Shown here: positions 37,814 through 40,226 of the stretch, piece after piece
Layout of the letters: each line of letters begins with the position of its first letter
Numbering within the stretch: position 1 is the first letter of the stretch
From: Halovenus rubra
GTDB lineage: Archaea > Halobacteriota > Halobacteria > Halobacteriales > Haloarculaceae
Assembly: GCF_026586665.1 (NCBI RefSeq)
Contig: NZ_JAODIY010000001.1
Location: 310,001-374,000, forward strand
DNA: 64,000 bases
Direction: 5' to 3'
The notes under the pieces: generated by a model
The model's input: only the letters and a program-made list of their open reading frames with translations
Database searches by the model: none
Told to the model about the DNA's origin: nothing
Translations under genes and position numbers: made by a program

Positions 37814-38992
37814 TTAGTCAGTCCGGATGACGTCGAGGCCGTTTTGCTGGTCGACTTCTTCGCGTCCGCCGTCCGTTTCACCGAAATCCTGGTTTTGCTC
37901 GAAGTTCGCTGCCGCGTCAAACTCCTCGCTTTCTACACCTTGGATTGCCTGCCGAGACTTGTCGGCTTGCTTTTGTGTGGTTGGGCCAAGCACCTGTGCA
38001 CTCTGGACGCCGGTCATGATGGCCATGACTCGGACCTTGCCTTTGTATTCTTCCTGAATACGAGCGCCCCAGATGACGTTGGCGTCAGCTTCCAACCGGT
38101 CGGTGATATTCTGAGCGATGCCCTCTGCTTCTTGCAGCGTAAGGTCGGGGCCACCCGTAATGTGGACAAGTCCCCCACTTGCACCACGGTAGTCGACATC
38201 GAGCAGTGGGTGGTTCATCGCGTCCTTGACAACCTCCTCGGTTTTGTTTTTGTCTTGGGTCTCACCAACAAGCATCACCGCGACACCACCCTTGTTCATG
38301 ATGGCGGTCATATCGGCGTAGTCTAGGTTGATGAGCGACGGTTGGGTAATCGTCTCTGAGATACCTTTGACCGTTTCGGCGATAATCTGGTCCATCACCG
38401 AGAATGCTTTGCCGATGGGCAGGTTCGGAACGTAATCGAGCAGGCGGTTGTTGTCCAGCACAATGATTGAGTCCGCCTCCTCACGGAGCCGTTCGAGCCC
38501 TTCTTCGGCTTTGACCGTCCGTGCGCGCTCGACGTTGAACGGCGTCGAGACCATACCGACGACAATTGCACCTTGCTCTTTGGCAATCTTCGAGACAACT
38601 GGGGCTGCACCAGTCCCGGTCCCGCCACCCATTCCGGCAGTGACGAAAACGAGATCAGCGTCGCCAAGTACCTCTTTGATTGTTCCCTGTGCCATCTCGG
38701 TCGCACGCTCACCCATACTTGGGTCGCCGCCTGCGCCAAGCCCGTTTGTCAGGGACTTCCCGACGAGAATCTTCGTATCCGCTTCGATCATCTGCAGGTG
38801 CTGTTTGTCAGTGTTGATGGCGATCGTTTCGGCACCGTCGACACCGATGTTGTACAGTCGATTGACTGTGTTGTTGCCAGCACCGCCGGCACCGACGATG
38901 ACGATTCGTGGGTCACCAAAGCCGTCGGCGTCCGCCATCTGCTTTTGCTCTTGTTCGTCACGCTCGAGGGCTTCATTGACGATATCTTGCAT
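37814..38992 (-). CDS. ftsZ2: Cell division protein FtsZ2
   Basis: The 392-residue tubulin-like GTPase has [20 protein letters not shown] near residue 32, the tubulin signature [20 protein letters not shown] near 122, and [20 protein letters not shown] near 315. The acidic C-terminal tail ends in [10 protein letters not shown], a likely partner-binding peptide. In haloarchaea FtsZ1 and FtsZ2 act together at the division ring; FtsZ2 governs constriction. The close-following gene order cdrS-ftsZ2, with 3 bases between, identifies this as FtsZ2 and not FtsZ1. It is cotranscribed with cdrS and so controlled by the dyads upstream of it. Confidence 0.96.
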
Positions 38993-38995
38993 CGT

Positions 38996-39193
38996 TTACA
39001 CCTTCGCCCACGTGCGCTCTTTGCGGCGCTTGCGTTTCTCAGAAGGGCGCTCCGGTTCTGTGTCGTGCTCGGCGAGCATCTCTCGAACCGCTGAGCGAAT
39101 CGCTTCGCTCCGATTCGGGTACTCCCCGGTTTCGACCATTTGTTCGACCTCTTCTATCTGCTGTTTCGGAATCCGTAGTGTCACACGCTCCAT
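38996..39193 (-). CDS. cdrS: Ribbon-helix-helix regulator CdrS
   Basis: The 65-residue protein is a short ribbon-helix-helix (RHH) factor: [20 protein letters not shown] with [19 protein letters not shown], then a basic tail. The first strand VTLRIP inserts in the DNA major groove in RHH dimers. CdrS in Halobacterium and Haloferax is cotranscribed with ftsZ2 and is a master regulator of cell division. It ends 3 bases before the ftsZ2 ATG. The start at 39193 is fixed by the RHH strand. Confidence 0.93.
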
Positions 39194-39212
39194 ATTTGTA
39201 TTCCCCTTGTGG

Positions 39213-39373
39213 GTAAGACGGGGGCGAGCGTTCACTCGTCCATTCGTCTTACACAGCAAAACCGCATTACGGAAATCCGGTGTTTACGGCGACCGGTGCT
39301 GTGTAAGACTTCCGTCTTACGCACGAATTACAACAGACTGGGGGATAATAAAACTACCGGTCAGACGTATGAC
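39213..39373. promoter_or_regulatory. Cluster of GTAAGAC/GTCTTAC dyads upstream of cdrS
   Basis: The 230-base gap before cdrS holds GTAAGAC at 39213-39219, GTCTTACACAGCA at 39246-39258 and its exact inverse TGCTGTGTAAGAC at 39297-39309, and GTCTTAC at 39314-39320. The last two form a perfect GTAAGAC-N4-GTCTTAC dyad. A further GTCAGAC-GTATGAC pair lies at 39360-39373. This pattern (short inverted halves, several copies) is what RHH factors bind, so operators for CdrS and/or CdrL are likely. Confidence 0.65.
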
Positions 39374-39423
39374 GATTTCTCGATTATTCTGCTAGTGGCC
39401 TTGTACTGTCCGTTTTCAGTACT

Positions 39424-40020
39424 TTACCGTTCTTCGAGAACGTCCGCCGCAGCAGTCCGTCGGCCACAGCTTGGACAGAATCCCCAGTCTGACCGAAGCT
39501 CGTCGCCACACTCACAGAAGACTCTGTGCGACGACTTCTCTCCGCAGTTCGGGCAGTAAACGTGGGACTGCGATACATCTTCGCCACATTGTGTACACGT
39601 TTTACACTCTTCAGGAGGCGTGTTTTCGTCTACTTCCGACGGTGTCTTACCCGTTCTGTCGCTGTGTGACGCATTGTTTGACGTTTCGTGTGACGTGTCT
39701 GATTGCACGTTTACGCCGTCGTCATCTGCGTTGGGGGACTGCCCCGAATCGCCATCAAGCGAGATGTTTACGTTGATATCTTGGGGCTGTTGTGGTGTAA
39801 ACGCTCCGTCGAGGCGGTCTGCGATGAGCATGTCGACACGTTCTGTCACAATCTCATCGAGACTGTCGCTTTCGGTGGTTGTCGTCTCGACTGGTTGCGC
39901 GGACCCGCGTGACTCAAGGTACTCCCGCAATGCCTCCCGCATAATCTCGCTTTTTGAGGCATCGAACTCTTCGAGTTGCGTGATGAGCTCGTCGTCCGCG
40001 CGGAACGTTATTTTGCTCAT
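39424..40020 (-). CDS. cdrL: Ribbon-helix-helix and double zinc-ribbon protein CdrL
   Basis: The 198-residue protein starts MSKITFRADDELITQLEEFD with SKSEIMREALREYLES, an RHH domain like CdrS, then a Ser/Asp/Asn-rich disordered linker (about residues 60-140) and a C-terminal double zinc ribbon (CTQCGEDVSQSHVYCPNCG, CECGDELRSDWGFCPSCGRR). It is the long companion of CdrS and lies immediately upstream on the same strand, 230 bases away. An in-frame ATG 4 codons earlier (40032) is also possible. A perfect dyad sits 51-68 bases before its start, suggesting autoregulation. Confidence 0.9.
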   Translation of the reverse strand: MSKITFRADDELITQLEEFDASKSEIMREALREYLESRGSAQPVETTTTESDSLDEIVTERVDMLIADRLDGAFTPQQPQDINVNISLDGDSGQSPNADDDGVNVQSDTSHETSNNASHSDRTGKTPSEVDENTPPEECKTCTQCGEDVSQSHVYCPNCGEKSSHRVFCECGDELRSDWGFCPSCGRRTAAADVLEER

Positions 40021-40070
40021 TCCCGTCGTCATACTGTTTGTCACCCACCCTATTTCAATCTTCCCTGGCT

Positions 40071-40088
40071 GTCTGACATGAGTCAGAC
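40071..40088. promoter_or_regulatory. GTCTGAC-ATGA-GTCAGAC dyad upstream of cdrL
   Basis: A perfect palindrome of two 7-base arms with a 4-base centre, 51-68 bases before the cdrL start. It matches the cdrS-upstream dyad in arm length, spacing and in the outer pattern GTNNGAC-N4-GTCNNAC. It also lies between cdrL and the divergent tRNA-Tyr gene. Confidence 0.6.
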
Positions 40089-40152
40089 GGTCTTGCTCTC
40101 GTCGGGGGAATTCATAATGGTTAAGTCTCCGAGCCATCCTAACTGTTTATGT

Positions 40153-40226
40153 CCGCCCTTAGCTCAGACTGGTAGAGCAGTCGACTGTAGATCGACTTGC
40201 CCCCCGTTCAAATCGGGGAGGGCGGA
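40153..40226 (+). tRNA. tRNA-Tyr (GTA)
   Basis: The 74-base gene folds as a standard cloverleaf: acceptor CCGCCCT pairs with AGGGCGG and discriminator A at 40226; D arm GCTC/GAGC; anticodon stem GTCGA/TCGAC around loop CTGTAGA with anticodon GTA; T arm CCCCG-TTCAAAT-CGGGG. The C1-G72 pair is the archaeal tyrosine identity element. There is no intron and no encoded CCA. GGTTAAGTC at 40119-40127 is a TATA-like box about 30 bases upstream. Confidence 0.95.

Follow-up and report, generated by a model that had tools for sequence, protein, structure and literature searches.

The closest described relatives of the system analysed here come from two haloarchaeal genera. Chromatin immunoprecipitation (ChIP) of CdrL in Halobacterium salinarum yielded a single reproducible site in the whole genome, which lies before cdrS-ftsZ2 (Darnell 2020, PMC7439475). 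ChIP of CdrS in Haloferax volcanii yielded 18 sites; their symmetric motif lies mostly 41-110 bases ahead of the start of transcription, and the sites include ftsZ1 and dacZ and neither cdrS nor cdrL (Liao 2021, PMC8406309). Post-transcriptional control of the cdrS-ftsZ2 operon has been suspected in Halobacterium, where its mRNA is decoupled from ribosome occupancy; haloarchaeal transcripts are mostly (~70%) leaderless (PMC8303175). More distantly, aCcr1 of Saccharolobus is also an RHH factor set over a division gene, although its target is the ESCRT-type cdvA (PMC7617429), whereas CdrL has zinc ribbons and targets cdrS-ftsZ2.

The window examined here, a 64,000-nucleotide stretch of Halovenus rubra DNA, holds the same genes in the same order as Halobacterium salinarum, all on the minus strand and likewise with a single CdrL-type site upstream of cdrS-ftsZ2. 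cdrL (39424..40020, starting with MSKITF at 40020) encodes an RHH N-terminus, a middle part that matches Pfam CdrL_M and C-terminal zinc ribbons that match Pfam zinc-ribbon families; its RHH part resembles the aCcr1 cell-cycle regulator family weakly (E=5.5e-5), under that family's cut-off. It is followed by cdrS (38996..39193, with its ATG at 39193) and, 3 bases past the end of cdrS, by the start of ftsZ2 (37814..38992; Tubulin/FtsZ and FtsZ_C). The 65-aa CdrS is an RHH regulator (Pfam RHH_1) that scores 117.3 bits against the NCBIfam equivalog TransRegCdrSHalo, whose cut-off is 100, and its N-terminus is like those of NikR (2bj1, E=5.3e-5) and of CopG/ParD-type antidotes, but a metal-sensing C-terminal domain is absent. 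In Haloferax cdrS could not be deleted. Just upstream of the cdrL promoter lies a tRNA gene on the plus strand (40153-40226), and in another genome, that of Haloferacaceae archaeon XH8, two cdrS copies lie on one chromosome record, near both of its ends.

Two perfect 7-4-7 dyads stand before these genes, as the original prediction had said: GTAAGAC-TTCC-GTCTTAC (39303-39320), 110-127 bases before cdrS, and GTCTGAC-ATGA-GTCAGAC (40071-40088), 51-68 bases before cdrL, both distances being correct for the starts given above. They are the sole matches to GTNNGACN4GTCNNAC in the window, where 0.16 would be expected by chance and where two or more occurred in 3 of 100 dinucleotide shuffles. Across the genome, however, this loose pattern has 9 matches against 5 for a reversed control, so that taken alone it is a weak marker. 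Before cdrS the sequence likewise shows the further half-sites that had been reported, at 39213, 39246 and 39360/39367, as well as the inverted repeat, whose 13 bases match perfectly (39246-39258 with 39297-39309). Both dyads are conserved in related genomes, in the ways described below, and most likely are protein-binding sites of the CdrS/CdrL circuit. The reading that we favour, with a probability of roughly 70%, is that a CdrS site precedes cdrL and that a CdrL operator overlaps a structured leader at cdrS-ftsZ2; its computed basis consists of sequences, positions, conservation, motif uniqueness, covariation and absence outside the haloarchaea.

The palindrome before cdrS is the more constant of the two. 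When the regions upstream of cdrS in 123 haloarchaeal genomes from 10 families were scored for GTAAGAC-Nx-GTCTTAC, with GTGAGAC permitted as the left half, 121 contained it, with a spacer of 4 bases in 94 genomes, 5 in 23 and 2, 3 or 6 in the other four; it is likewise present in 80/80 named loci from a separate genome collection. The proposed check of orthologous intergenic DNA thus returned a near-universal motif that is found about once per genome: each of 16 whole genomes has exactly one match to GTAAGACN2-6GTCTTAC (control, 0), and outside the haloarchaeal class there were matches in 1 of 101 archaeal genomes. The palindrome is thus unique in the genome and placed upstream of cdrS-ftsZ2, as a CdrL operator would be, and because the site is single, like the one-site CdrL ChIP result, the cdrS dyad is most likely of the CdrL type. 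The main text of the Halobacterium study (PMC7439475) does not use the words motif, palindrome or inverted repeat; the palindrome, a further half-site (U, below) and the leader structure were located in the present analysis.

The dyad before cdrL belongs to a different and more widely distributed motif. We use GTCNGAC-N4-GTCNGAC (12 fixed bases), which was inferred from the ChIP target genes rather than from the published logo; 11 genomes have 3-7 copies of it each, and the reversed control has no match. At ftsZ1, a published CdrS target, the motif is exact and lies just upstream of the BRE/TATA; this holds for genera g1, g6 and g17 and for Haloferax, which was identified by the 100% identity of two loci to those of named species. 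At a second target, dacZ, a degenerate form keeps one nearly fixed position. At cdrL the site (40071..40088) occupies the same place, upstream of a predicted TATA region ATTGAAATAG (40050..40059, minus strand) that is recognised by its position and has similar sequence in the same place in relatives; by TATA spacing only, the sites at cdrL and ftsZ1 both lie at about -50 from the predicted starts. The dyad before cdrL shares its sequence and promoter position with the motif at the ChIP targets ftsZ1 and dacZ, and so is most likely of the CdrS type. The motif was also seen between two conserved divergent genes in 5/5 Haloferax genomes searched and, at three loci from two families, between a conserved divergent pair that encodes a small acidic protein and a predicted membrane protein.

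Conservation of the cdrL site is common and not universal. At least 10 of the 12 fixed bases are found in 67 of 112 haloarchaeal cdrL promoters, against 1.3 in shuffles, and among these 112 promoters there is no clear site in 15/26 Natrialbaceae-type genomes nor in genus g17. Against a CdrS site at cdrL stands the Haloferax ChIP, which shares the symmetric motif and the targets ftsZ1 and dacZ with the pattern used here but whose 18 sites do not include cdrL (PMC8406309), whereas many other haloarchaea have kept the motif upstream of cdrL. In the volcanii group the left half-site of the cdrL dyad is degraded, which may explain why ChIP did not list it.

The original prediction had taken the two dyads for one operator code, bound by both CdrS and CdrL, with autoregulation of cdrL. 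The common 7-4-7 geometry speaks for such a code, as do the likeness of the half-sites GTCNGAC and GTAAGAC and the similarity of the N-terminal strands of the two proteins (ERVTLRIP in CdrS, SKITFRAD in CdrL), but the two sequences prove to be distinct, GTAAGACN2-6GTCTTAC being found once per genome and GTCNGACN4GTCNGAC at several promoters. Moreover, the ChIP lists, from two species, are disjoint, with CdrL only at cdrS and CdrS at 18 other sites, and GTAAGAC or GTCTTAC is found in only 3 of 112 cdrL promoters. We therefore consider a shared code very unlikely. Autoregulation of cdrL is not supported either; the dyad before cdrL carries the motif of the CdrS targets ftsZ1 and dacZ instead.

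The position of the cdrS palindrome relative to the promoter is itself informative. A predicted TATA box TTTTATTAT lies at 39345..39353 on the minus strand, and almost every one of the 121 genomes has a TATA-like element ~30-37 bases before the palindrome, most of them at 32-33 bases; from the usual TATA-to-start distance, transcription is predicted to begin at the palindrome or 1-3 bases before it. Upstream of the TATA box, and thus outside the predicted transcript, are two half-sites (39360..39373, minus strand), GTCATAC at 39373-39367 and GTCTGAC at 39366-39360. In many genomes GTCTTAC, GTCATAC or GTATGAC recurs at -52 from the palindrome, a position that we call site U. The halves of the palindrome are site 1 (39314-39320) and site 2 (39303-39309), and the downstream copies at 39246 and 39213 are sites 3 and 4. 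In the two genomes that form the exceptions, site 2 is replaced by GTCATAC or GTATGAC, variants that are found also at -52.

Downstream of the predicted start, ~32 bases from the TATA box, lies a predicted 5' leader of the cdrS-ftsZ2 mRNA (39194..39322, minus strand) that folds with a z of -4.93; a 5' UTR has been drawn for Haloferax cdrS in published work. Over 57 genera, with one genome each, the mean z of the leader fold is -3.95, against -0.4 to -0.6 for control folds of the cdrL 3' end, the cdrS start and a piece of the cdrL interior. The common fold is a three-way junction. P1 joins sites 1 and 4, its 5' strand GUAAGACGG (39312..39320) pairing with its 3' strand CCGUCUUAC (39213..39221), as indicated by folds, a covarying extension and pair counts, and P2 joins sites 2 and 3 together with their extensions (39297..39309 with 39246..39258), the two arms of the 13-base inverted repeat. 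P3 is a hairpin between sites 3 and 4 (39223..39241; the mean z of the 3-4 interval is -1.38 over 44 genera). P1 closes directly before an SD-like GGGGAAU (GGGGAAT at 39200..39206 in the DNA), whose columns are nearly invariant across 82 leaders. In single-sequence folds the core pairing probabilities are 0.90 for 1:4 and 0.81 for 2:3, against 0.07 for 1:2 and 0.05 for 3:4. In leaders of the Natrialbaceae-type family the P3 hairpin contains a conserved GCGTCTGACAGGGGCGCG that includes GTCTGAC, and the most divergent genome of the set keeps the palindrome, with a 3-base spacer, and has no recognisable sites 3 and 4. That the region might be coding sequence was considered and rejected, as its length differs between genomes regardless of codons.

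The stems show compensatory change. We compared complementarity outside the 7-mers within a genome with that between genera, and found it in excess for the extension of P2 (2:3; z 6.4, P<0.0002) and for P1 (1:4; z 3.2, P=0.0018); in the same across-genus test there was no covariation outside the 7-mers for 3:4, 1:2 or two control pairings. Restricting the shuffling to families left this outcome unchanged, with covariation for 1:4 and 2:3 and none for 3:4 and 1:2. In an alignment fitted to the model, 90.9% of cells are paired; with the strands slid against each other the figure is 26-51%. Two-sided changes number 124 against 62 in shuffles, and both counts are to be read in the knowledge that the alignment was fitted to the structure. 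Compensatory changes of this kind are what a structured cis-regulatory leader RNA would show.

The original prediction had seen a cooperative array of DNA sites before cdrS, and one part of it survives: the half-site at 39367-39373, upstream of the TATA box, keeps a fixed position. The copies at 39246 and 39213 do not appear to belong to such an array, because their distances vary (the 3-4 gap is mostly 19-34 bases and the 2-4 gap mostly 61-90) and because they pair with sites 2 and 1 in a covarying leader; they are better described as RNA partner strands. One could nonetheless suppose that U, 1, 2, 3 and 4 are all CdrL half-sites in DNA and that the RNA fold is a by-product of inverted copies. 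With one genome per genus, site 1 has 1 change and site 2 has 0 in 371 bases, so that both are almost invariant, though recognisable copies of site 3, the partner of site 2, vary (22 changes in 315 bases), and site U repeats the 7-mer at a constant distance despite lying outside the predicted transcript; both observations, together with the overall equality of G.U and A.C pairs described below, are what DNA recognition would give. An account in DNA alone is harder to reconcile with sites 3 and 4 that lack fixed spacing, with bases beyond the 7-mers that covary for 1:4 and 2:3 and not for 3:4 or 1:2, and with several genomes in which the site 3 7-mer has been lost and pairing kept through G.U, as in GTGAGGC. 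We judge it unlikely. The pattern instead fits recognition of U, 1 and 2 as DNA with sites 3 and 4 as RNA partners, which is the division of roles in the reading favoured here, drawn from comparison of sequences.

Over all pairs on the sense strand G.U and A.C are equally frequent (57 vs 57), and folding is no weaker on the opposite strand (z -4.94, against -4.93 on the sense strand). In the P2 core, though, G.U outnumbers A.C by 24 to 6, with P ~0.008 if cells are independent and 0.04 with one sequence per genus. The argument for selection on the sense RNA is accordingly made from location, covariation and the P2 core, since overall G.U equals A.C and the antisense folds alike.

The four 7-mers can all pair both ways, and two partners for each of sites 1 and 2 would explain why these do not vary, so that a bistable attenuator that toggles between 1:2 with 3:4 and 1:4 with 2:3 could be imagined. 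Such a switch calls for a conserved alternative pairing, but 1:2 and 3:4 show no covariation and have the low pairing probabilities given above, and site 3 often deviates from the 7-mer; we rejected the attenuator as highly improbable. The 1:2 hairpin, which is invariant and was the sole result of RNAalifold on the sequence alignment, was set aside on the same grounds of missing covariation and low single-sequence probability. It has also to be asked if it might be quasi-palindrome template switching in the course of replication, and not selection, that keeps the arms complementary, given that in the window the two arms of P2 lie near each other and match perfectly. The P1 arms, however, are ~90 bases apart and yet covary, the topology is maintained in most haloarchaeal genera despite changing loop lengths, and the adjoining control regions have no excess folding, which makes this explanation scarcely credible.

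The leader preferred here, an RNA of three arms that overlaps the CdrL-type site, can be recognised specifically. A covariance model scores 100.5 bits at the locus, 22.7 on the opposite strand and 16.4 at the best place elsewhere in the genome. It matched 23/24 haloarchaea, only at cdrS, and 0/124 other archaea, and it also matched another 25 of 25 named loci, among them close relatives of H. volcanii; some of these loci share genera with the training set. Rfam gave no match for the leader (best E=4.1 at a lax threshold), its hits in the region being to the tRNA only, and a search of the available papers found no described cdrS leader and no later work on CdrL; the three-armed leader structure seems not to have been described before. 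Like riboswitches and autoregulatory leaders it would be a 5' leader RNA whose stems covary and meet in a junction, and here its end adjoins the SD-like sequence. It differs from known structured leaders in having no Rfam family and in containing a putative DNA operator within its first stems.

Taken together, the results suggest a circuit in which two regulators of related fold would read two different DNA sites. CdrS-type sites stand just upstream of the BRE/TATA at ftsZ1, at dacZ and, in many haloarchaea, at cdrL, and CdrS bound at GTCNGAC-N4-GTCNGAC would most likely activate. CdrL would occupy one place per genome, the cdrS-ftsZ2 promoter, with a half-site near -50 and a palindrome at the start of transcription; that palindrome would open a leader of ~120-130 nt whose three-way junction closes just before the SD-like sequence and which most likely sets the stability or translation of the cdrS-ftsZ2 mRNA. 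We infer from the comparative data which protein binds which site at this locus, where transcription starts, that CdrS activates and all that is said of RNA function. Within the zinc ribbons of CdrL (39427-39612), residues 138-186 are weakly similar (E 0.03-0.08) to RNA-binding zinc-ribbon proteins of archaea that are seen in ribosome structures such as 6sw9. It is a speculative and decidedly doubtful idea that CdrL might be a dual reader, its RHH part binding the palindrome as DNA and its zinc ribbons binding the leader RNA copied from the same DNA; were it true, one protein would govern both transcription and translation of cdrS-ftsZ2.

For the biology of the haloarchaea, the idea of a division switch is now brought down to named sites, with a proposal as to which RHH protein reads which palindrome and with a possible feedback of CdrS on cdrL. 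The leader adds a candidate RNA layer, a structured element that nearly all of the haloarchaea sampled keep ahead of cdrS and the tubulin gene ftsZ2, and a conserved leader of ~120 nt on a division operon is unusual because ~70% of haloarchaeal transcripts are leaderless. Such a leader could account for the divergence between mRNA and ribosome occupancy of cdrS-ftsZ2 in Halobacterium.
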